This document shows, piece by piece, positions 9,505 to 58,000 of a DNA stretch of 64,000 nucleotides. The DNA is taken from positions 43,327,203-43,391,202 of the forward strand of contig JAJEKV010000002.1 of the NCBI GenBank assembly GCA_021234155.1, given 5' to 3'. Source of the DNA: Isoetes taiwanensis (Eukaryota > Streptophyta > Lycopodiopsida > Isoetales > Isoetaceae). Below the pieces are notes generated by a model, which worked only from the letters and a program-made list of their open reading frames with translations, was not told where the DNA came from and made no database searches. How positions within the stretch are numbered: position 1 is the stretch's first letter; every line of letters begins with the position of its first letter. A program made the translations under genes and the position numbers.

Positions 9505-10340
9505 ACATGTAAGCCTGAAAGATATGTTGTGTGTACTAAATTTAATCAGAAATTTGATTTATGTAAGTCAAATAATAGATCTAGGATTTAAGGTGGTGTT
9601 CGAACAAAAAATATGTAAGATAATGCGTGATAATAAAGTTTTTTGGCAAAAATAATTGAAGACTTGTTTGAACTAAGCAAAAGTAGAATGTTTAAAATAT
9701 ATGCTATACTGGTTCCGTCTGTTAAGTTATGGCATGAAAGATTAGCTCATATGTATGTGAAGAATGTTGAGCTTATGGCCAAGAAATGTTTAATAAATAG
9801 TTCAAAAGAAATTGTCAATTTGTTTGTTATGGATGTATGCTAAGAAAGCATACAAGGACACCATTTAAGAAAAACAATAAGGGTGCAAAGGATCTTCTTG
9901 AATTAGTGCATACTGAGTTGTATGGACCAATGAATATAGCAAGTATGAGTGAAGAAAGATATTATATTTCATTTATTGATGATTATAGTAGAAGAAATTA
10001 ATGCTGTTTTTTAAATGCAAAGCATCAAGCTCTGAAAGCATTTAAACAGCTTGTGAAACGGGAAAGAAGTCAAATGTATAAGATCAGATAGAGGTGGAGA
10101 ATATATGTCTAAGAAATTTGTTTAGAGCGAATAAGAAGGCAACTCACTTGCAGATATAGCCCTCGGCAAAATGGGGTTGCAGAACGCAAAAATAGAACAG
10201 TATTGGATGCAGCTAGGGCAATGATAAAGCATGCAAAGCTACCAAATTTTTTATGGGCAGAAACAGTAAAAACAACATTTTATATTCAAAACAGACTTCC
10301 TTCAGTCAATACATAAGGATATGTCCCTGAAGAACTATAG
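9501..10340 (+). pseudogene. Copia GAG-pre-integrase and integrase remnant
   Basis: After the LINE the Copia frame resumes with LKDMLCVLNLIRNLIYVSQ, the usual link after protease. Then comes LWHERLAHM (9729-9755), the start of the pre-integrase zinc region. Next is ELVHTELYGPMN (the D of DDE replaced by E) and YYISFIDDYSR near 9960, then PRQNGVAERKNRTVLDAAR near 10160-10220, which supplies the catalytic glutamate of the integrase core. Frameshifts lie at 9840, 9998 and about 10125. Confidence 0.8.
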
Positions 10341-39873: not shown

Positions 39874-40223
39874 TATGTTCTCACTGAGGGACAGGAAGAT
39901 GACGAGGGAGAGGAAGAAGAGGAGAAGAAGAAGAGAACACCAAGGAAAGGCAGTGGAGTCTCTCGCACCAATATGACCTCATTCTTAATCGAGGCTGGTG
40001 GGAGAAATGGACTGACATATGGGCTCAATGGACAAGAGGCAAAGTCAAGGACAGCAATGGAGAATTTCCAAGCAGGCCGGACCCCAAGTTGTTTGACAAG
40101 CAGTTCATGAAGAGGATACAGGGCCTCACGGACAAAGAAACGCTTGACCTACAAGGCAAAATCTTGGAGGGAACAATCCTGCTAAGGAAGATCAGGCGTT
40201 CTAAAATGCAGGACGCAAAGGAT
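39874..40223 (+). pseudogene. Unrecognised ORF of the giant element, 5' part (interrupted by the Mutator-like element)
   Basis: The frame begins after a Glu/Lys-rich stretch and reads through WWEKWTDIWAQWTRGK and KLFDKQFMKRIQGLTDKE to KMQDAKD at the insertion point. It is open and coding-like (tryptophan-rich, then charged helices), but I recognise no family. The frame continues in phase at 49439 after the Mutator-like element with YATVLKRQRALEEG. The interruption makes it non-functional unless the element excises. Confidence 0.6.
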
Positions 40224-40290
40224 GGGGAATTTTTCTTGGAGGGTTTTTTCTTGACTGGTTAAGAGGGTTTTTTTTATTTCTAGTAGACGA
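40224..40290 (+). repeat. Left TIR of the Mutator-like element
   Basis: Starts GGGGAATTTTTCTTGGAGGG and is about 80 percent similar to the reverse complement of 49367-49429, with GGAGGGTTTTTT, TGGTT and AGAGGGTTTTT as the fixed blocks. Confidence 0.8.
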
Positions 40291-40571
40291 AATTGTGAAT
40301 TTTTTGGTGGCATTAACATGTAAATAGGATCTTTGGTGCCTAGGATTAGAACTTGAATTGGACAGTTGATTTAAATGGAGAATAACTTGGCACACATTTA
40401 TTTAATAAAGTAATTGAAAGAAAACATAGAAAACGAACATGTTTCAAAGGATTGATCGCAGGACATCATCTGTAACTACAGGTTGGATGATGTCAATAGT
40501 CAATCTTGGATCTTGGTTTAATAGCCTTGCAAAGACATACATTATATGCTTGCATGGAGTATATTGCTTCT
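40291..40571. other. Element DNA between left TIR and transposase stop codon
   Basis: Non-coding; probably the transposase 3' UTR. AATAAAGT-like text on the plus strand near 40405 is not on the transcribed strand, and no polyadenylation signal was fixed. Confidence 0.4.
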
Positions 40572-43500
40572 TCATTGTTCTAGCTCGAAATCGACGGTGC
40601 ATGTTGGATATTTGCAAATGCTTACCTTGTAAGTTTCGTTTGGCCTTCTAATACAATACTCAACATGTAAGTGAGGTATGATGACTCTCGTTGAAAGCAG
40701 TTCACATTCCAAATGTAGAGCTTGTTCAAGTCTGATTTCTGCATCCTTCCCCAATTTTGTCCTTCTATTCATGCGTTTTCCAAACCGCTCCATAACTGTC
40801 ATGGGCTTACTTGTCATGGGCTCACTAGAAGCTGTAGCATTGCATGAATTGATCCCTCTAATAGAGAAACTTCCTCTCTCCAATATTCCCAACTCTTGGC
40901 TGTTTAGATTGACCCCAGTACATACTGGCCAATCAACAGGTCTAACTGGCACATGTACTATATTGGTAGAGGGATACCATGTGTGTTGCATATGATCAGG
41001 GCAGAACCAAAATTTTTGTACGACCTCCCTTCCATTTGCTTTCCTTACCCCTGTAAAACATGGTGCTGCAGTGGATTTGGTTATAATCTTATTGATATAG
41101 GAATTACATTTCCTACCATTCGGCCCCAATCTTCCCTGGCACTTCACTCTACTACCTGGCTCAGTTCTTCTTATTGCCCACTCTTCGTCAGCCACATCAA
41201 ACTCATGAACAACATATACTGCTTCATCAAATACTATGTTACGCCTTCGTGATGCATCCATTCTAACTCTAGCTTGCGTATGAGCTCGCTTATCTGGACG
41301 ATGACTTCCTGATCCCATGTCTCTGTTGTACTCAGAACTGTCTCTAGTTCGCTTAAGAACTGTTTGGTTGTTTCCTCCGGAACCTGGATCTATGGGGCGG
41401 ATTCCGGTATGCAACACAGCTGAATTGACTGCATTAACACAAACTGAAGGACTTACATTGCTAGTAGCGGGAGTACCTAATCTTCGAATCAATGTAGCCA
41501 ATCCAGGACCCGTGCCAACAAAGTTATGTTCTCTATGTGCTTTACACTTTGCACTTTGTAATACAGCTTCTGTCAGATCATGTAGACAAGCGTCATACAA
41601 GCTTATCTTATTGACGTAACCTCTTGATGCTAACCAGCTGGCATGTCTAGATTCAGATAAATTTGTGTTTGGTATCTGAGCTGCTGCAACTAGATCAACA
41701 CCATCATGCATGAAATTACCCCATCTACTAGCTCTTTGGTGCCACCATGCAAGCCAAGATCCCAATGCTGGTAAATCTCGTGGATTAGCTTTTCCTGGCC
41801 ACCAAGAAATAATATTTTGATATGCCACTTCAGCTTCTTCCACAGAAGCTGCTGATCTCCATGCCCTGCATAAAGTTAAATGTTCTTGCCTATGCTCATG
41901 AATAATGAGTTTATTTGTATGTCTCTGTAGACACTGCTCCCAATGAAATTTACAACCACGTTCTCTTCCTTCCATTGGTTGTCCATCATTGAATACCAGA
42001 CGAATGGCATTCCAATTAGCTTGAGCTTCGTCAGCCATAAATCCTCTAAATTGGGCCGGCTTAAAGCTCTTCAACATCATTACATTATTAAGCTTCTTCC
42101 AGAACTTTGCTTGCGAGGCAGTATCTTCAGTTTTCATCTCACAAGTTGCTATTGTCAATAGACAACGCATACTGAAAATTATAGAGAAAAGAAGTAAATA
42201 TGTGTCATTAAAATGAATAAAATAGAAGTCCAATGAGTACCTAGGGTCATAAACATGACAAGCCAAAGTTGTCCATCCAGGGATACGTTTAACATGATCA
42301 AAATGAACCCAAGAATTTTCTAAGTCACCTCCAGGGCGCATTCTGTTAACAAGCTCCACTCCAGATCCAGGACCAGTTGTGGACATTTTGAATATATAAC
42401 ATCGACCAGTATGTTCATTGTGAAGTTGGTAGGGAAACTTGGATCCATGAAAGAATTGATATCTGCAGTACTGCTTCAGGTAAAGAATCTTCCCAATCTC
42501 ATCTTTTTGTGTGGTGCGACACTCCAATGTCTTATTTATCCATTGACGTATCCTTTAGAACCAAGAAAATTGTCAAAAGACAAAAGAGATATATATTAAT
42601 AGCAATATCTACATTAAGAAAAGTACCTTCGCTTATTGCAAAGGGGCTCCAATTGTCTCAGCAACCCGTCAATTTTATCTCGGTCCCACATGTGAATGTC
42701 AGAAGCTTCCTCTGTTGATATCAAACTATTGATTGTTATTTCCATGGCAATCTCTTTCTCTATTTCTTTTGGCCCTTTCCTAGCAACAGATCCACTGGAC
42801 TTGGATTGAACCATTTGCTGCATTTGCACTAGTTCTTCACGACTTGGTAGTGATCTAGCTGGGTGTTCATGCCTGCCAATATGAATGGCCAATCTAGTGT
42901 ACCTGAAATTGTCAGGCAATACGTAATAGATTATACATTGGCATAGCTCGATGCATGAAGGTTGTTCATCACAATATTCACAAGCCAAAACACCTGCATC
43001 CTTAGACAATGGACCAATAATAGGTTGCCTTTTCAGAGTTCCCTTCCATTGAACATCATTTGCAAAACCTCTAGAAGAAAATAATCACAAGTAGGATTCA
43101 TGCATCTTATGTGCCCACAACATTTGGAATACTTAACCACGCCATCAAATGCTTGACTTGTTTTCTCTGGCTTGCTCCAGATGTATGGATCAACTTTGCG
43201 TTCCATTCCAGACATGGACTTGAGTACATCAGGAGGCAACTCAAATACTATAGTATCATTATACTGAGATGGTAAATATTCCACTCCTTGTGCTATCTCT
43301 GTCTTGGATGTGATTTTTTTCAACTTACTAGTTCCAACGCTCCACAGAATTGACTCAAAAGTTGATAAAGGTTTCTTGGACACATCTCGATTAGGACTTT
43401 CAATCAATATTGGGGCATCAGGAGTGCCGATACAGATGGGTGCGCCTTCTACAGAAATAAAGTGACCATTTACTGCAAAAGCTCTATAGACAACTTCACC

Positions 43501-43816
43501 TCTGTCATTGGTAATCTCCGGGAGTCGTAAGGTTGGTAATCTCCGGGAGTCGTAAGGATCTACCTTCTCGACCATTAGAAGATTGAATTACACATAGCCC
43601 CGCTGCTTTAAATTGGAAACTATCACAAAGCCATTTTCTACTCATACAACATTCTCCATTTTCAAAAGTAGCAAAGATTCTCAAACGCTTTCCTGGTGAA
43701 GTGATGATAACATCAGTTTTGGTGAAGGCCAGAATATCGCATTCGCCTAGATCCATGTCAAAGATGAATAAAAACTTGAATCTAACGAGCCGGTTTAAAA
43801 AGATGAAACACAACAT
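40572..43816 (-). pseudogene. GCM/MULE-type transposase with introns, two disabling lesions
   Basis: Minus strand. The N-terminal part holds a Cys/His-rich finger (KCCGHIRC, NPTCDYF, then ACEYCDEQPSC and IHIGRHEHP), like the WRKY-GCM1 class linked to MULE transposases. The catalytic core has HVYDPSMRCLLTIAT across an intron, FRGFMADEAQANWNAIR, CKFHWEQCLQRHT and NTNLSESRHASW; the acidic residues in these strings are the expected DDE set. A C-terminal Cys cluster (KCQGRLGPNGRKC, FWFCPDH) follows. Introns at 42553-42626 (74 bp) and 42172-42240 (69 bp) have GT-AG ends and keep phase. Lesions are a perfect 25-bp tandem duplication (43508-43557) and a one-base slip near 43083. Without them the gene would be close to intact. 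Confidence 0.82.
43508..43557 (+). repeat. Perfect 25-bp tandem duplication inside the transposase gene
   Basis: Two identical 25-base units, 43508-43532 and 43533-43557, each starting TTGGTAATCTCCGGGAGTCG. The duplication shifts the frame: reading from upstream reaches LRLPEITN and then ends, while the second copy repeats LRLPEITN in the frame that continues downstream. Complete identity points to a recent event. Confidence 0.93.
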
Positions 43817-44364
43817 GCTTGAACGTTCTTAACAAAATTTTGTCATAAATGCATAACGTTGTAGTTATGAGTGCTTGCCATAATCATAAAACCAAACATT
43901 ATGAATGCCAATAGAACACTATCTATATCATAATCATAAAACGTTAGCATTAATTGTCATAAAACGTTAGTGGGGGTGCAAATGTGGGGCAAAATATTAA
44001 AACGTTAGCATTAACGTCATAAAACGTTAGTGGGGGAATGTGGGGTATTGGCAAATGTGGGGCAACCCGTTAGAATTTTTTGAGGCAAAAATTTGAGGCA
44101 ACCCGTTAGAACGCAAAAATTCCTAAAGCATGTCTATTGCCCGCAAGCATTCCTAAAGGCAAACATTCTTAAAATAAAAAGACAACTTTGCTAAGACATG
44201 ATATTTTTAAAAGTATATTGATCATCAAAAGTAACGAAAGAAAAAAAAAGAAGCAAGAAACGAAAGAACTTTTTCTTATGCGACGGCGCGTTTAGTGACT
44301 CTGCCAGATGCTGCTCCAAATCGAACTCGCACGCCAGATCACCCAGCGGTAGCCAGTCCTCCAC
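43817..44364. other. Upstream region of the transposase gene
   Basis: Contains repeated ATAAAACGTTAG words (about 43938-44030) and GTGGGG(C/A)AA words (44025-44105). These may be part of the promoter shared by the divergent genes. No coding frame. Confidence 0.45.
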
Positions 44365-45110
44365 TAAATTTGTAAGTATTTGTTATGTTGCCTTCTCTTT
44401 CACCATTTTTCGCAGATCATTTCGCGGATCATTTTTTGATTTTTCGCGATCTCCTCGGATAGAACTCCTGCAAATCACCCCAGGCGGCGCCGTCCTACCC
44501 AAAATCTGTGAGTATTTTGTAAGTTGTCTTCTCTTTCACCCTTTTTTTTCCCAGATCATTTAACTGTACTCGAACTCCTCCAGATCTTTTCGATGTCTTG
44601 GAACTCCGAAAATCAACCCAGCGGCCCTCCCAAAAAATGTTAGTATTTTGTAAGTTGCCTTCTCTTTCACCGTTTTTTTTTTTTTTTCATTTTGATATCT
44701 TTTCTTAGATCATTTAAGCGTACTCGAACTCCTCGGATCTTTTTAAGCTCTCTTGGAACTCTTGCAAATCACCCCAGGCGGCGCCGTCCTCCCCAAAATT
44801 TGTAAGTATTATGTAAGTTGCCTTCTGTTTCACATTTTTTTTTCATTTTCATTATCTTTTTGCGAGCATTTAAGCGTACTCGAACTTCTCGGATAAAGTC
44901 GCTCTATTGGAACTCCTGCAAATCACCGTAGGCGGCGCCGTCCTCCCTAAAATTTGTAAGTATTTTGGAAGTTGCATTACGTTTTTGAGAGCATTTAAGC
45001 TGTACTCGAACTTCTCGGATAAATTTTGTTTGCTTGAACTTCAGAAATCACCCCAGTAGCCGTCCTCCCCAAAATTTGTAAGTATTTTGTAAGATGCCTT
45101 CTGTTTCACA
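44365..45110 (+). repeat. Six-unit tandem repeat array between the divergent genes
   Basis: Anchors AAAATTTGTAAGTATT or close variants lie at about 44365, 44501, 44631, 44796, 44949 and 45070, spaced 114-165 bp. Each unit also has a TACTCGAACT(C/T)CTCGGAT-like block, GGAACTCCTGCAAATCACCCC, GGCGGCGCCGTCCTCC, and GT(T/A)GCCTTCTGTTTCAC plus a T run. The anchor TTTGTAAGTATT resembles a 5' splice site, so each unit could be a leader exon. The array lies upstream of both genes. Confidence 0.85.
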
Positions 45111-45543
45111 GTTTTTTTTCATTTACATTATCTTTTTGCAAGAGAATGAACGTGTGTCCACTTTGAAAAATAAGATTGTGGACCTAAGCCCTTTGCTCTG
45201 TGAACCTAAGCCCATTCATTTTTGAGCATTAGCATTTCATTTTATTTGAGTGGCATTGTATTTTATCCTTCAGGCTTTGTTTGTTATGTCCGATTTGGGT
45301 CTGTTCCTTGTGTCAGATTTGATTCTTTATGCGGTTATCCTCCCCATTCTTTACACATACATTCCAATCCCACATCCTTGTGCGTGCAACATAGCCATTT
45401 GCATCTTCTAATAATCTACACCTGTCCTATTTTCCTATCAGTTGTTGCGTGAAGCTAAAGTAGTTCTCTTTCATTCTGCAGATGTAAAAGTTGAAGGTCA
45501 GATGTAAAATTTGAAGGTTTTGCAAGATAGTGAGGTTGTTAAT
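45111..45543. other. Leader region before the plus-strand gene
   Basis: No repeat unit and no strong frame. A short frame at 45222-45452 has no features. Probably 5' UTR or intron of the gene that starts at about 45544. Confidence 0.4.
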
Positions 45544-48330
45544 GGTTCAAACTAGAGGCAGGAATCTAGATTTTCAGCCTATCGTTTGGAGTCCCCTAAA
45601 AGCGGAATAGAGGAAAAGCAAATAAAATTATGTCTAATATTCTTGGCGGTCGGGACCATGAAACAATAGAAGAAGAGGATGAGGATAAAAATGAGGAAAT
45701 GGAAAATGAAGACGATTGATGGAATTGATGCATCAGGAAGCGGATGTGCAACAATGTCATAAGCTTGAAGATCAATTTCAAAACCCGAAGGTGCCCGCAT
45801 GCAGAAAGAAACAACATAAAATCAAGACAACATGAAGCAAAACCAGCCACATATGAAAGTTTGGAGGATGATATTAATGAAGATTTTGATGCAACCTTCA
45901 CGATGGAAATGATTTCTGAGACCCTTGATCAACTCAGGTTAACAAGACCTACACCACCACCATTGATCCCTCCGTAGAATTCTTAGAAATGAGGCAGTGA
46001 GAACAGTGACTAGTTCTACTCAACAGATGCGAGAAGTATTTCGATCTGATGGTTATATTCAAGAAAAAGGCTCCTTCATTTTATCAATGCAAACTTTGAG
46101 GAAAGATGATGTTTGGCTTGATGACACCATAAAGGCAAACTGGGATCCCATCTGGAGACAAATAATTGAAGAGTTCGAATTAGAAGTTGCAAATTGAGGA
46201 GGATTGGAAAGATTTGAGTGGTCGCATGTTCTTATCTTTGGGATGGGAATCATCGTCATTGTGGCATGGATGGAGGAGATTGCATCCAATTACACATTCA
46301 ATAGGTCGAGACATATTCGAGTATTGGCATCATTTGTGGTTGTCGATCGTGATACAAGAAGGTCCATTGATATCATCATTGAATCGCATTAATGAGTATG
46401 TATTGCCTTCTTGCATATATAATCACTTAATTTATGTATGTAATCAACGATGTTGATTTAAACTTATGTAATGTATTCTGAGGTTGAATGAGGTTGGAGT
46501 TGTCAAAAATACTCTAAAAGATACTTTGTATAGTGTATACAAAGTGGCAACATCTAATCCTGAAAAGTACACAAGTAGATTAGAACCTTCATATCTGAAA
46601 TCATTGAAGCTAAAGGATTCTAGTGGCATTCTTTGGTGACCAATGGTATCCATTACCAAGACTTGCTTACTGCAAAATATTGTTTCAGGTAATTATTTTT
46701 AAATTTTGTTATGGTAATGTATAAGATGTATTGATTAGTTGTTTATTGCATTGGTCTATAGCGTGCCATTGATAGAGATATAGAGCAAGAAATCAAGAAG
46801 ATTGGACAATCGATGATCTTTGAGACAATGAGATCAAATGCCAAAAGGAAGGTCCATGAAAAGTGGATAGCAAAAATGGGGAAGTATCTTGGAATTGTGA
46901 ATCCATCTTTAGGAAGTAGTTGGTTGCATGCTGTGACTCGTCTTGACTTGGAAACTAAAAGCATGAACATTACAGTAGAAAAGTTGATTGAAATGGTTAA
47001 AGCTAAGGTCCCAAATCACGTTAGGGACAAATGGATTCATTGGATGTCTTCTGGTGTTGCAATTATAAGTACTTATGGCATTCCAACTAATGATAAAGAT
47101 TTTAGAGATTGGGTAAAAAAGAAAGTGTGGTTGGAGCATTTACTATCCCGTGCAAAGGAAATTTTTCTAAGAACATCAGAGGACTTCAACATTGTTATTG
47201 AAATCCATAGAGGCGATGACCTAGAGAGTTGGTTTCGTCAATTCAAATTGGAAAACAGAAAAATGATGTTCAAGAACTATGAGAAGGAGATGATACTTGG
47301 TTCTACAATGCATGATGCATTTGAAATTGAAAAGTCTGCTACAAGGGTTTGCCACAGGTACATCCTATTTTTCTTTATCAAGTTTACTTGTTTACGTTTG
47401 ACACTAACTTCTTTGTCTTACACGAGATATTATAAGTATCTCGTGAAGCAAAATCTTTTGCATCAAATTCCTATCCGGATCAAAGTATGGTGCAAAAAAA
47501 GGCGAGCATGGCATGTATTCAGAGAAGGGCAATATGGATCGACCGGGAGGCATGGCGATTATGAGGAAATCCATTGTCCTTGGTGGTTGGATTTTCCAAT
47601 CAATAGTTATCCAAAGAGGAGAAGGATGAATGGCATAAACATCAAAAGGCGTTATGAAAGCAAGTGATCCTATCCCTTCCGTCACAAAGGTTAGATGTAC
47701 ATGGTACTAAAAGCGATGAAAAGAAAAGGAAGAAAGTAAAGCACAAAGATGTTGATGTATCGATGAGGAAACTATAGAGGTTGGGTGTGGAGCATCCATG
47801 TCCACAACCTTTTGAAATTATGTGCAATGTTGCTATTGAAATTCATTGTGCTGATGTTTGTCACATATCGGAAGATTTAAATCGTAAGATAGAAAGCAAA
47901 TCTTTCAAAGAATTAAGGGGAGTTTGCCGGGTCACACGCATAAAGCCATTGGCGAGGTACATGCATTTGGAAAAGAAAGGGATTGGGGATTTGACGTACT
48001 TCTAATGGATTTTTCCGACTAATGACTTCCTTTTCTTTGGTATTTGTCGGAGATACCGATTGGAACAAATGTCCACAAACATTGATTGAGGCGGCCTTTG
48101 CTCTAGGTAACTTATGTTTGGATGATGGTGTTTGGATAGTAGCTATTTGTTCTTGAAGCAATGCAAACAAGTCCAAAGGGCTGGAAAATTGAGGAACATA
48201 GAAATTATGAGGACTTACACCCTCGTATCTGATAAACCTTTTGGGTTCAAGATAGATAAGCTTGGCACTTTCGCTCAACTTTCTTTGCAGGTTTATGTTA
48301 TGGGCAGAATTGGCACAACACCGCGCATTC
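45544..48330 (+). pseudogene. Unrecognised multi-exon gene of the Mutator-like element, upstream of the methyltransferase domain
   Basis: Coding-like pieces lie in series on the plus strand: MVQTRGRNLDFQPIVW (45544); an acidic stretch (45640-45710); ESLEDDINEDFDATFTMEMI (45858-45917); SFILSMQTLRKDDVWLDDTI (46073-46132); WKDLSGRMFLSLGWESS (46205-46255); KDTLYSVYKVATSNPEKY (46519-46572); a 190-residue helical block (46763-47357); and IESKSFKELRGVCRVTRIKP (47887-47946). Stops and possible introns (for example after 46195 and 47357) separate them. A segment near 47985-48015 (GFDVLLMDF) might be methyltransferase motif IV, weakly. I recognise no family for the first 600 residues. They probably belong to one gene with the domain that follows. 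Confidence 0.5.
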
Positions 48331-48484
48331 AAGGATCAGCAAGTAAGTTCTTCTTGATTATTTTCTTGCTTATATAGATGTCACATTTTGTTTAAGGATG
48401 TCTCTTTCTTTTGTTTAAGGATGTCTATTTCTGTTTATAAAAGTTAGATGTGTTTTGCATTGCCTCATTTCTTCTCTTGTTTCC

Positions 48485-48830
48485 TAGGTACAGATTATGC
48501 AAAATCTATCATTCATCATCATCATTTGCAAGCCACCAAATCTTTGGCAAGCCCAGAAAGACAATGCCTTTGAAAAAAAATCTATTCAGTTCATGGAGTA
48601 TTTGTTAGAAATGCTTTGCCCAGAAGGTGGTGTAGTCCTAGATTTATTTGCAGGAACAGGCTCAATGTTAATGGCTTGTGCTATTCGTGGATGTCATTGT
48701 TTTTCATTTGTGGTGATCCTGTTTTTATGTGATCTTGTGAAAGCTAAGTGCATATCAAAATTTATGAAGCCAAATGCATTGATTTGGAGAACAAGAATGA
48801 GAAGTATGATTCGAGTCCGAAGATGAGCGA
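48485..48830 (+). pseudogene. N6-adenine/N4-cytosine-type DNA methyltransferase domain
   Basis: The open frame at 48497-48826 contains FEKKSIQFMEYLLEMLCPEG, then VVLDLFAGTGSMLMACAIRG (DLFAGTGS at 48641-48664) and CHCFSF. This is motif I with the preceding helix and following strand of bacterial-type beta-class amino-methyltransferases, where the pattern is V.D.FAGTG....A....R.C...E. Motif I sits near the C terminus, as in classes where motif IV (DPPY-like) comes first. Here the motif IV candidate is imperfect. A splice acceptor precedes the domain (TTTCCTAG at 48481-48488). Domain assignment is fair; activity is unlikely in this copy. Confidence 0.65.
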
Positions 48831-49366
48831 TGTTGTAGGACAAGATGTTGAGGAGCTGGGAGGAATAGTAAACTCTCACTCTTTCAAGAAATATTGTATG
48901 CATTTATAGCTCCATGCAAGTAGTTGTCAAATAGTTCTTAATATTGCTACATGTTTGCAGTGCATTACCAGACTATGCTGAGAAGATTGCTATGGAGCAA
49001 GCATCACAACCTTCACCTATTATAGTCGTTTCGAAGAGAAAGAAATGCTTATTTGTGGACGATGAATCTAGTGAAAGTTTGAGGTAGACATAGCAAATTG
49101 CTATCGAACTTGTGTCCTTCTATAGTCAGACATTTAGTTCGTTCACTTGTGGTACCTACAAAAACTATGGCTGCTATTGTTTGACATTTTCCGGCTTAAC
49201 TATGCTTTTGCATTTTTTATTAGTTTCTACAAACTACCTTTTCATAATATTTTGGATACTTGATTGAAGCAAAGGGAATGGTTTATGTATTATAAGATTG
49301 TATAATTAAATCAAAGTTAGGTACTAAGAAATACCATAGGAAGATACACGCCAAGGATTAAGCTGA
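48831..49366. other. 3' part of the Mutator-like element
   Basis: A short coding-like tail may continue to a stop at about 49085 (IVVSKRKKCLFVDDES, ending LR then stop), with a basic stretch. The rest is AT-rich 3' UTR before the TIR. Confidence 0.4.
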
Positions 49367-49429
49367 AGTAGACAACATAGAAAAACCCTCTAAACCATCC
49401 CTAAAAAAACCCTCCAAAAATTTGCACTC
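49367..49429 (-). repeat. Right TIR of the Mutator-like element
   Basis: The reverse complement starts GAGTGCAAATTTTTGGAGGG. Same blocks as the left TIR with small indels in the T runs. It is followed by the second copy of the 9-bp duplication. Confidence 0.8.
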
Positions 49430-49438
49430 GCAAAGGAT

Positions 49439-49700
49439 TATGCCACAGTCCTAAAGCGACAGCGTGCGTTAGAAGAAGGCATCACGGAGTTCTGCAACGT
49501 TGCATCTAATGAATACCATGATTTTGATTATTACAAGGAAAAGGCTGCCCTTGATGAGGAAGACATGAAGGAATTGAACCGTCTATGTCAACCCTACATC
49601 AACACCAAGTCAAGCGTAGCACGTCAAAACCCTTCCTTTCCCCGAGCGTGCTATGGCACCACGAAAAAGGAAGCTTGGATTAAGGGTGGTCCCATTTAAA
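49439..49700 (+). pseudogene. Unrecognised ORF of the giant element, 3' part after the insertion
   Basis: Starts in phase with 39874-40223: YATVLKRQRALEEGITEFC, then DFDYYKEKAALDEEDMKEL, ending at a stop near 49699. The smooth join across the 9-bp duplication proves the insertion site. The overlapping next frame (from 49736) may be the original continuation after a frameshift. Family unknown. Confidence 0.6.
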
Positions 49701-50835: not shown

Positions 50836-51075
50836 AAGATGGTATAAATTTATACCTTAATAGATAGTAATATGTGGACATAGTATGCTAGAGAGTTCGC
50901 GGTATAAATTTATACATAAAGAAGACTTGATGGTATAGATTTATACAACAAAAAGAACTCGAAGCGGTATAAATTTATCAAACAAAAAGGACTCGAGCGG
51001 TATAAATTTATACCCAAGAGGACTTTTGGTATAAATTTATACCGCAAGAGTTTTCTCGGTCTAAATTTATACCAA

Positions 51076-51171
<96 letters not shown>

Positions 51172-51425
51172 TATATAAATATATAATATATATATATAAT
51201 ATATATATTTACATATATATATCCAAAAAAAAGAGAATCTCTTTGGGTATAAATCTATCTGTGAGACTTCCTCATGATATAAATTTATCTGGTTTTTTTT
51301 TTTTTTATATATACAAATATGTGAGCGATATATATATTGAATATATATATATATTAACATGTATAAGATGTATATAGATATATATATACATAAAATATGT
51401 AGTCCAGAGTATAAGTTTATATCGC
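50836..51425. repeat. Array of GGTATAAATTTATACC palindromes
   Basis: About ten copies, perfect or one to four bases off, at roughly 50839, 50900, 50930, 50964, 50999, 51029, 51059, 51247, 51277 and 51409. One more lies at 52045. The spacing is about 30 bp in the first block. Spacers contain AAGAGGACT or AAAGGACTCG-like text. The palindrome is specific to this element. Confidence 0.85.
51078..51166. repeat. (TA)n microsatellite
   Basis: About 43 uninterrupted TA units, followed by more TATA-rich DNA to about 51225. It is a likely site of length polymorphism and cruciform extrusion. The open frames here (YIYIYI) are artefacts. Confidence 0.97.
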
Positions 51426-52534
51426 GGCAAAATCTTGTGGGGTCTTTCTTGCTCCCAAAGGTTTTTGCAACTTAATCTTGTTGAAATAACACACTCAAGG
51501 GATAATTTTATGCGTTTTCTTAGTTTTTAGTTCAAAAGTTCTAAAATAGTTCTAAATTCTCGACCTTGTAATGCAATGTTAGAGCATAAATTAGTCGAAT
51601 CCCGTTGTTATTTTTATTTTTTTTCTCTACACACATGCTAACTTCACTTTAGGAAGCTCAAAAACTGTTTCTAAAGGCAAAGGACCCCAAAATGTTATGG
51701 AGACACATGTGTTCAACGAGAAGGAAACTATGTAGTTTGTCCATAGGGGTGCGAGGAGTAGCAACCCCTCAAAGTTTACCTATTTCTTTGCAAAAAGCGG
51801 AAAAAAAAGCAAGATAGACAAATACTTCTCTGTGGAGAAATGCAATGGATGCTTCACTTTTCTGAGATGATGGAATTGTCTTTGAAGACTCTCAACATTG
51901 ACAAGGAGCTTGACTATCTTCTCAACATCACTATATTGTGGATTGGTATTGTGCAAGCCCAAAGGCATGATGAATACATCTCAGAGAACAACAAAGAAGG
52001 CCATGTAATCACGAGAGCTTCACTACTTCAACTTTTTTTCCCTCGGTATAAATTTATCTGACATCGTCGGTTGGAACTTCAACTAAGCGCATGATTTCGT
52101 GGATGTATTATCATTTGTAATACCATATGATGCAAAAACAATAATTTTTCATTCAAGCAGTTTGTTCAACTGTCTCCCAATGTCTTTTAAGGTCAATTAG
52201 GATGTTTAGCCAAAATGGTTGTGAAATAATAATTTTTTTGTCTTTTATAACAGCCAATATAAACGTTCTAAGGGATAAGATACAAAAGCGTCTAATTTTT
52301 TCATATGAGTTTGCCCCATAATAAATCTTTGGCTTTTCGTAGTGGTCCTTTTCCCCTCTAAAATGAGATATTTTTTTTTTGTTGTTCTTCTCCTTAATGT
52401 TAAGTCTTCCTAAAATGTCTGTTTTCATGAGCAGCGGTTTTATAAATCTTTAGACACAAGATAGTAAAAGAGTCCTTTTAGGGTATTTTAGAATTTTGTA
52501 AATTTTTAGAAGGAATCTTTCAAACGCACTTCTT
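51426..52534. other. Remaining interior of the 2.3-kb element
   Basis: Short frames at 51840-52061 (plus) and 51780-51968 (minus) look slightly coding-like but match nothing I know. The minus frame contains MPLGLHNTNPQYSDVEK. This may be a captured gene scrap. No transposase motifs. Confidence 0.35.
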
Positions 52535-56159: not shown

Positions 56160-58000
56160 CAGAGTGCAACAGTAGCCGCCACCATGGAATGTCTAGAAGA
56201 GCATGGGTGGATGGATATGGCCAAAATAGATGTCTGACTGCATCCCATGCTGCCAATAGTCCTCGAAGGAAAGGAGATGCATTTGGAAAAGGCTCAAAAG
56301 GGTGAAATAGATCCTAAGGAAGAACTGGTTTGACTGCTTTCTTGCCTAGAGGAGTACGATGGCCGAGAGATTGTTTGAGAAGGCGAAGACTAGGAGAGTC
56401 ATCTTCACCATTCAGGAGCCTCCAAATGAATTTTGAGATGAGGACTTTACTCTGCAATAAGAAGCCCAGTATATCCACGCCACCTGCCCACTTAGAGGGG
56501 ATGCATTTAGACCAGGCAACCTTAACCACGGCACCCTCCTCTGTGCCAACCCATATAAAATTTCAAATTATTGCAATGAGCTTCTGTATTTTAACTGTGG
56601 GACTAGCAACAAGGAAGCCATATATATATATGGATACTGCTGAGCATTGATTTAGCAACTGTAATGCGACCAACGAGGGATAGCTTTGCAGTTGACCACC
56701 AGAATAGGTGTTTCTCCAAACCCTTTATAATTTTTGCCTATGCTGCTCCTGCACCAATATGAATGCCAACAGGAATTGCAAGTAGCTTTGTGGCCTATCC
56801 ATGAGCAAAAAGCTTTCATGGATAATTATGAAGTCATGCCGGAATTGGAGTGTCCAATGTCCATAAGGCCATATACCTTTGCCAATCCACCAACACACTA
56901 ATAGCTTCAAGGTTCTCGGAGTTGGAGACAAGAAAGAGGAACGTGTCATGAGTATATTGATTGCGAACTTCCTGTGTGTACCATCCTCCATAGCGAGGCT
57001 CTGAAGGATCGTCCCCTGATGTAACATCAAATAACTGCGATCGCATCTTCGCGACAATTGTGAAAAGGAGTGGCACTAAAGGGCATCCATGACGAATACC
57101 TCGACTAAGTGTAAAGACCGTTGTCGGGTCACCATGAAAGAGAACAGCAGCTCGGATAGAGACATAGGCAACTTCATGACGTCGGATGTAAATTGTTGTC
57201 TGAATTCCAATCTGAGCATACGCAAGCGCATGCACTCCCAGTTGACATTGTCATATACTTTCGCAAAATCTAGCTTAAGATACACAACGGGATAATTTCG
57301 CCGATGTGCTTAATAGATCCCCTCATATGCAACAACCACATTATTAAGAATGCATCTTCTCAGAAGAAATCCTGACTGAGTTGTAGAAATGGACTCAGCC
57401 AAAATACCCTTCACTCTCCCCTGCAAATGCCTTGGCAAATATTTTATATATAGATGATTATAAAGTAATGGGTCGCCAATCTGCAATAGTTTGGGGATCT
57501 TTGCTATTGGAGATCGGCGAGATGGCACCTGTATTCAAAATTTTGTCCAGGGGAGTAGACCGACGAAAGTAAGCGTCAAATACATCTGGCTCCAACCATT
57601 CCTAAAATTCGTCAAAGAACGCAATTGATATACCATCCAGCCCTGGGCACTTGCTCTTTTTAAGTTCAAATACTGTCGAACTCAGTGCAGTAATAGTTAT
57701 TGCAGCCTTTGCCGATAGACGTGTTCTTCAGAAATGATGGAAGATATCCTAGATAGGACTGCATCTCGCATTTTTTACTGAAAGGACGGATGCTTCTCAG
57801 CAAGAAATGCTTGAAAGTAGTCATGCAGATGCTGCTTGAGCTCTGTTGGCTGCAAGAGTACTAAGTCATCTGACAGATGCAAGGATGATATGGCTGACGT
57901 CACGCGGCGCCGCTTAGCTACGCGAAAGAAAAAGCCCCTACAATGGTCTCCATATAGACTTTCATTCCAATCCTATTAGAAATGGTCTCAGTTCCTTTAG
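56160..58000 (-). mobile_element. L1-type LINE reverse transcriptase fragment
   Basis: Minus strand, 5' to 3': LPRHLQGRVKGILAESI (57450-57400) with QSGFL-RRCILNNVV; YLKLDFAKVYDNVNWECM (57285-57232); GIRHGCPLVPLLFTIVA (57110-57060); YTHDTFLFLVSN (the YADD site, now YTHD, at about 56960); and VAWSKCIPSKWAGGVDILG (56523-56467). These are RT motifs in correct order. Frameshifts at about 57300, 57075 and 56830, plus the changed catalytic motif, mean a dead copy. It ends next to the Gypsy 3' region and may have inserted in its LTR. Confidence 0.82.

Follow-up and report, generated by a model that had tools for sequence, protein, structure and literature searches.

Results

The 64,000-nucleotide stretch of Isoetes taiwanensis DNA analysed here (hereafter the window) carries at positions 40224-49429 a decayed Mutator-like element, in which a transposase-like gene on the minus strand and an accessory gene of the DNA methyltransferase family on the plus strand diverge from an array of repeats. 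This arrangement is best explained by a dead copy of a large and old family of Mutator-like DNA transposons with a DDE-type transposase and a divergent accessory gene. The accessory gene opens with an ATG at 45542 and extends to about 48868 (limits set by comparison with the sister copy L039). It is broken here, its first exon having stops in all three frames. Intact copies encode a protein of about 990 amino acids (aa), whose organization is best explained by a conserved N-terminal domain and, at the C-terminus, a methyltransferase domain of N6/N4 type, joined by a middle region. The counterpart of the N-terminal domain occupies approximately 45888-46394 on the plus strand and is putatively ParB-like, as judged by the motif DGNHR..AW. 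The C-terminal domain is represented by a plus-strand open reading frame (ORF) at 48488-48826, which contains the S-adenosylmethionine (SAM)-binding end with VVLDLFAGTGSM at about 48635-48663. In a search with the Pfam profile N6_N4_Mtase (PF01555, cut-off 26.7 bits) this ORF scored 29.3 bits, confirming the claim of the original prediction that the gene ends in a methyltransferase domain; copy L045 scored 34.8 bits and copy L051, with 16.6 bits, fell below the cut-off. A relative is known from a clubmoss, the Diphasiastrum complanatum protein O6H91_08G053900 (P0001), which aligns with 92% of the length of the L051 accessory protein at 31% identity. It also provides the only structure model, which is unusable (mean predicted local distance difference test score 39.7).

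Sister copies with the same pairing of genes were sought and found (L039, L041, L044, L045 and L046), which removes the objection that related elements might lack the accessory gene. L039 is about 97% identical to the window element over 4.1 and 5.2 kb, while L041 and L044 match it in pieces (77-94%) and share its divergent layout. The same layout is seen in L045 and L046, whose transposases are 57% and 45% identical in the longest stretches. L040 is partial and retains pieces of both genes, and L042 and L043 have only the methyltransferase gene within the 10 kb examined. With splice sites set by hand at GT..AG by comparing copies, both genes of L051 are open, each with three exons, and encode proteins of 992 aa (accessory) and 1043 aa (transposase); the accessory frames of L052 and L053 are open as well.

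The pairing was further assessed throughout the genome (1,658,258,908 bases in 1110 contigs). A 61-aa methyltransferase piece from the window gave 150 matches (150 scored of 454 candidates), a 218-aa piece of another subfamily 160 matches (776 candidates, 150 scored) and a 223-aa transposase piece 153 matches (830 candidates, 150 scored). The pairing analysis used 150 rows per list, and the two methyltransferase lists together comprise 219 distinct places. A listed transposase lies within 20 kb of at least 63 of these 219 places, a lower bound because only the best-scored matches are listed. In 62 of the 63 pairs the genes are divergent, with the transposase upstream on the opposite strand; the lone exception has both on the same strand, 18.5 kb apart. 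No pair remained when the methyltransferase places were displaced by 100 kb, by 300 kb or by 1 Mb, and the first methyltransferase list alone has at least 51 of its 150 places paired, all divergently. The head-to-head arrangement of a transposase with a methyltransferase-family gene, initially predicted from the window, is supported and is kept in sister copies. As to an origin in known viral contigs, a single scan of IMG/VR with six short peptide patterns gave no match.

Purifying selection acts on both genes, as the ratios of nonsynonymous to synonymous substitution rates (dN/dS; Nei and Gojobori count, values rough) are well below 1. For the accessory gene, the three pairs formed by L051-L053 give 0.098, 0.154 and 0.145, at synonymous rates (dS) of 0.79-1.67. 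Comparing L051 with L053, the ratio is 0.054 in the N-terminal domain, 0.098 in the middle region and 0.189 in the methyltransferase stretch; for L051 and L052, it is 0.068 in the middle region and 0.116 in the methyltransferase stretch, with the N-terminal domain saturated at silent sites. The first 115 residues of the protein are poorly conserved (0.26-0.36). Values of 0.138-0.198 were obtained for the transposase, and of 0.093 and 0.198 for the exons of L045 and L046. L051 and L045, which belong to different subfamilies, give 0.355 at nearly saturated silent sites.

The methyltransferase domain also matches phage methyltransferase families, again in its SAM-binding end: 347 phage records match with E values of 1 or less, none of them spanning most of the query, and the best sequence match to a solved methyltransferase structure (E 4.8e-6) lies in the same part. 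In N6/N4 DNA methyltransferases the catalytic motif IV reads [DNS]PP[YFW], and changes in it of the kind found here would be expected to abolish activity. Local alignments cover the SAM-binding end only. Motif IV was placed by sequence alignment and by a profile-based global alignment with a phage methylase, in which the D and P of DLPTN stand opposite the D and P of DPPY. The beta-class DNA methylases of phages and bacteria (for example Mycobacterium phage Arcanine gene 61 and Lactobacillus phage LBR48), whose SAM-binding end aligns, have DPPY where the element family has D[FL]PTN. In the window the motif IV stretch (47993-48026, plus strand) is frame-shifted, as judged by eye, and was left out of the count, which applied a six-member profile to the loci and returned 30 locus rows for 25 distinct places, five of them represented twice. 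D[FL]PTN occurs in 26 of the 30 rows and 21 of the 25 places (DFPTN in 21 rows, DLPTN in five, and DFSTN, DFLTN, DPPTN and DSPTH in one each), while the sequence expected of an N6/N4 methyltransferase, [DNS]PP[YFW], occurs in none of the 30 rows. The SAM motif FAGTG is kept in two subfamilies; motif I of the third reads LLTGTG. Since the clubmoss relative P0001 has DFPTD, the change either predates the split of the lineages or arose repeatedly.

Because of the altered motif IV, ordinary methylation is not to be assumed, and the active self-methylation put forward by the original prediction finds no support in these sequences. As motif IV is without an aromatic residue, it appears more likely that the domain reads or binds DNA rather than methylating it in the usual way.

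Between the two genes, an array of six diverged repeat units (repeat family D1, 44326-45120) contains three exact copies of the palindrome CGGCGCCG, at 44485-44492, 44779-44786 and 44933-44940. The palindrome includes three CpGs. The intergenic arrays differ in sequence among subfamilies and have CGGCGCCG or its variant CGGTGCCG in common. Besides the three sites of the window, exact CGGCGCCG was counted six times in L039, four in L041, three each in L044, L052 and L053, and twice in L046; L051 has two CGGTGCCG and L045 no site. L042 has one exact site in a truncated element, L040 and L043 none. Twelve extra 2.2-kb slices between other gene pairs (L058-L069) were picked with their sequence still unseen. 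Six of them contain 12 exact sites in all, a seventh has only a variant and five have none. Altogether, 36 exact sites occur in 13 of 21 intergenic slices (40,438 nt); the 47,652 nt taken from adjoining parts of nine elements contain none. The palindromic 8-mer that ranks second was counted 11 times, and dinucleotide shuffles of five slices yielded on average 0-0.008 sites per slice. Many of the sites share descent, and their counts therefore lack independence. Of 22 distinct sites, 17 and 16 retain dyad symmetry at the two base pairs that adjoin the 8-mer, although the bases themselves vary; farther out, the symmetry drops to 4-8 of 22. The array units of the window also carry a repeated GTAAGT, a splice-donor-like word, and the array may therefore belong to a transcribed leader.

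Over the whole genome, there are 81 CGGCGCCG pairs at a spacing of 123-153 bases, where the reversed pattern yields 8, and 84 at 78-108 bases, where it yields 12. The 100 places listed form 85 clusters, 15 of which have a listed gene of the family no more than 12 kb away (shift controls 0, 1, 0 and 0); among these near-gene clusters, 12 are upstream of a methyltransferase place and none is downstream. Some of the 70 remaining clusters resemble other repeats, and some may belong to unlisted copies. Away from listed copies, pairs of the palindrome are found in an apparent other repeat family (CGGCGCCGCCAG.. with GGGGGCAAATTTCAAGCCCCC; for instance C930:11360726, C963:1843067 and C1027:7512271). 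The window itself has a single further CGGCGCCG outside the element, at 57905-57912, with symmetric flanks (gcggcgccgc).

The element represents one insertion, whose limits are fixed by its inverted ends, a 9-bp duplication and an empty site. The left end (40224-40272) and the right end (49381-49429) include arms at 40233-40272 and 49381-49420, which form the longest inverted repeat between 39700 and 49900 (40 nt, 83%; runner-up 27 nt, 78%). The left outer end, GGGGAATTTTTCTTGGAGGG, is shared with L039 and L040 in unrelated flanks; the right one, ..TTTGCACTC, is shared with L040, and the right terminus of L039 differs. A clear duplication was seen around neither of these two sister copies. In the window the target-site duplication GCAAAGGAT occupies 40215-40223 and 49430-49438, can alternatively be read as 10 bp (CGCAAAGGAT), and its 9-mer recurs at 9885 and 22381.

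A genome search with a 253-nt query over the joined flanks gave 968 candidates and 40 scored matches, of which 39 cross the junction at 96-98%; the fortieth corresponds to the right flank in the window itself. Three matches inspected by eye have a single GCAAAGGAT at the junction. The boundaries predicted from the duplication and the inverted ends are thereby borne out. The original prediction had also described a host ORF that joins over the empty site: the frame does join, but 39 further genomic junctions match the joined flanks. The insertion target (39903-40214 and 49439-49699) thus belongs to an abundant repeat that has a long open frame, and a single-copy host ORF as the insertion site is rejected.

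The transposase-like gene lies on the minus strand at 40448-43756, the low end being approximate and set against L039. It starts with an ATG at 43756 and is broken in this copy, with frames at 40572-42554, 42614-43084, 43033-43587 and 43505-43828; a 25-bp tandem duplication at 43508-43557 breaks the frame relative to L039. Terminal inverted repeats are typical of Mutator-like elements (MULEs), being absent from some families, and the 40-nt arms conform to this. The duplication of 9 (or 10) bp, attested by the empty site, falls within the 8-11 bp given for MULEs in the accessible text of PMC6446971. A MULE profile search matched neither the window transposase frames nor L051, and among 41 aligned transposase members SWIM and Transposase_mut were each detected in two, weakly (best E 6.8e-5 and 0.034). 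Alignment of the transposase by hhalign to eight genomic MULE domains gave no match, the alignments being shallow; the GCM profile had no match in profile searches of the element's proteins; and no eukaryotic MULE structure is among the 50 matches listed for the transposase model against solved structures. The ISCth4 transposase (solved structures 6xgx, 6xg8 and 6xgw) counts among the closest known systems. A GCM/MULE-type transposase, as originally proposed, is plausible on weak profile and structure tests, in which no GCM profile matched.

Elsewhere in the window, a long TA-rich simple repeat at 51006-51471 gives rise to spurious open frames on both strands.

Discussion

With these data in mind, we tentatively propose, at a probability of about 0.45, that the element family encodes a VANC-like self-recognition system, in which the accessory protein acts on palindromes in the element's own promoter. 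The protein would dimerise on the palindromes of the two-way promoter and, once bound, would keep this region expressible by excluding or reversing host CpG methylation, an anti-silencing role like that of VANC proteins for VANDAL elements. We infer binding, dimerisation and anti-silencing alike from the arrangement of the element, and from the analogy with VANDAL: divergent genes surround a palindromic array, the N-terminal domain is the most constrained part of the protein and selection extends over the whole protein, which makes self-recognition the simplest reading. In the accessible text of PMC10398659, VANC proteins bind short-motif tandem repeats in non-coding parts of the Arabidopsis VANDAL elements and remove silencing. 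The family described here resembles VANDAL, as portrayed there, in being Mutator-type, in having an accessory gene and in having rapidly diverging short-motif repeats in non-coding parts, the exact palindrome being present in 13 of 21 slices. It differs in that its accessory protein is of the methyltransferase family and its ends are inverted, VANC having been compared by description only. Going one step further, one might regard the system as a convergent counterpart of VANC, in which a prokaryote-derived protein of a lycophyte Mutator-like family, combining a putative ParB-like with an altered methyltransferase domain, reads a promoter palindrome and shields it from CpG silencing, with the protein and its site diverging in step among subfamilies; we consider this extension possible but rather doubtful.

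Several observations weigh against self-recognition. An exact site is lacking in 8 of the 21 slices (variant in L051 and L063; none in L045, L059, L060, L064, L066 and L067), and the palindrome had been spotted in five elements before it was counted. Moreover, 70 of the 85 listed clusters lie more than 12 kb from any listed copy, so that the palindrome is not exclusive to the element and has other contexts too. The putative ParB domain is without a match in Pfam, PHROGs, NCBIfam and PDB sequences, and the palindrome may instead be bound by the transposase or a host factor.

Among other explanations, the accessory protein could be a self-marking enzyme which methylates adenine N6 or cytosine N4 on its own element and so distinguishes it or hides it from host silencing. 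The Pfam scores above cut-off in the window and L045, the FAGTG motif retained in two subfamilies and selection on the methyltransferase stretch (dN/dS 0.116 and 0.189) speak for such an enzyme, and modification of its own transposon has been proposed for an algal protein (PMC12477816, in the text accessible). Yet [DNS]PP[YFW] is missing from all 30 rows, the clubmoss relative has DFPTD and the third subfamily deviates in motif I as well, which renders self-marking unlikely. An equally small chance falls to a protein that aids the transposase, a role suggested for MURB in MuDR; the palindromes would then be bound by the transposase or by a transposition complex and would play no part in silencing. 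The constant pairing and the similar dN/dS of both genes agree with a helper; the palindromes, however, occupy the intergenic stretch, away from the ends where transposase sites are expected.

Still less probable is that the array is a mere promoter or 5' leader repeat for host factors, similar among subfamilies by descent. The many other contexts of the palindrome (70 of 85 listed clusters) and the relatedness of many counted sites fit this view, but the array units differ among subfamilies except for their core, and the flanking base pairs vary while retaining symmetry. Finally, MULEs are known to acquire fragments of host genes (PMC6446971, accessible text) and the window copy is broken, as would befit a methyltransferase gene picked up by chance and useless to the element. 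Such a passenger is hardly credible and largely refuted: the pairing is the same in diverged subfamilies, with 62 of 63 listed pairs in one layout, and L051-L053 have open frames at dN/dS of 0.10-0.15. On pairing and selection taken together, a chance neighbour or passenger was rejected.

How far the system is undescribed, as first claimed, depends on the part considered. According to the accessible text of PMC12477816, the brown-algal (Ectocarpus) element Sola1-1_Ec32 has an accessory gene with ParB-like and DNA-methyltransferase parts opposite its transposase, and this protein is proposed to bind the transposon that encodes it and to modify it epigenetically; the paper also cites proteins from green and red algae (Iyer 2011, Petroll 2025). 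The idea of a transposon-borne ParB-like/methyltransferase protein is thus already published for Sola1. Compared by that description, the two systems share the size of the accessory protein (1104 aa there, 992 aa in L051), its position on the strand opposite the transposase and an N6/N4-type methyltransferase domain; in contrast, the present element is Mutator-like rather than Sola1, resides in a land plant, has an altered motif IV and has a ParB-like part recognised by motif only. A literature search, judged otherwise from titles and abstract openings, turned up PMC12477816 as the one paper with this architecture, and none that places it in Mutator-like elements or in land plants. What is new is the Mutator-like, land-plant setting, the altered motif IV and the iteration of CGGCGCCG between the genes in several subfamilies. 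The clubmoss protein P0001, which shares the DFPT of motif IV, differs from the accessory protein by an N-terminal Myb/SANT domain (PF00249, residues 1-60). We take this Myb to resemble that of telomere-repeat-binding proteins, and P0001 could hence be a domesticated or retargeted version of the accessory protein.

In summary, our analysis would extend transposon-borne methyltransferase-like proteins from algae to the Mutator-like elements of a land plant. It names a concrete cis site, which makes the role of the protein directly testable, that is, whether it binds or methylates DNA and whether it marks or unmasks the element. A methyltransferase domain with an altered motif that is nevertheless kept by selection would suggest that these elements have retained it for reading DNA and not for writing on it.

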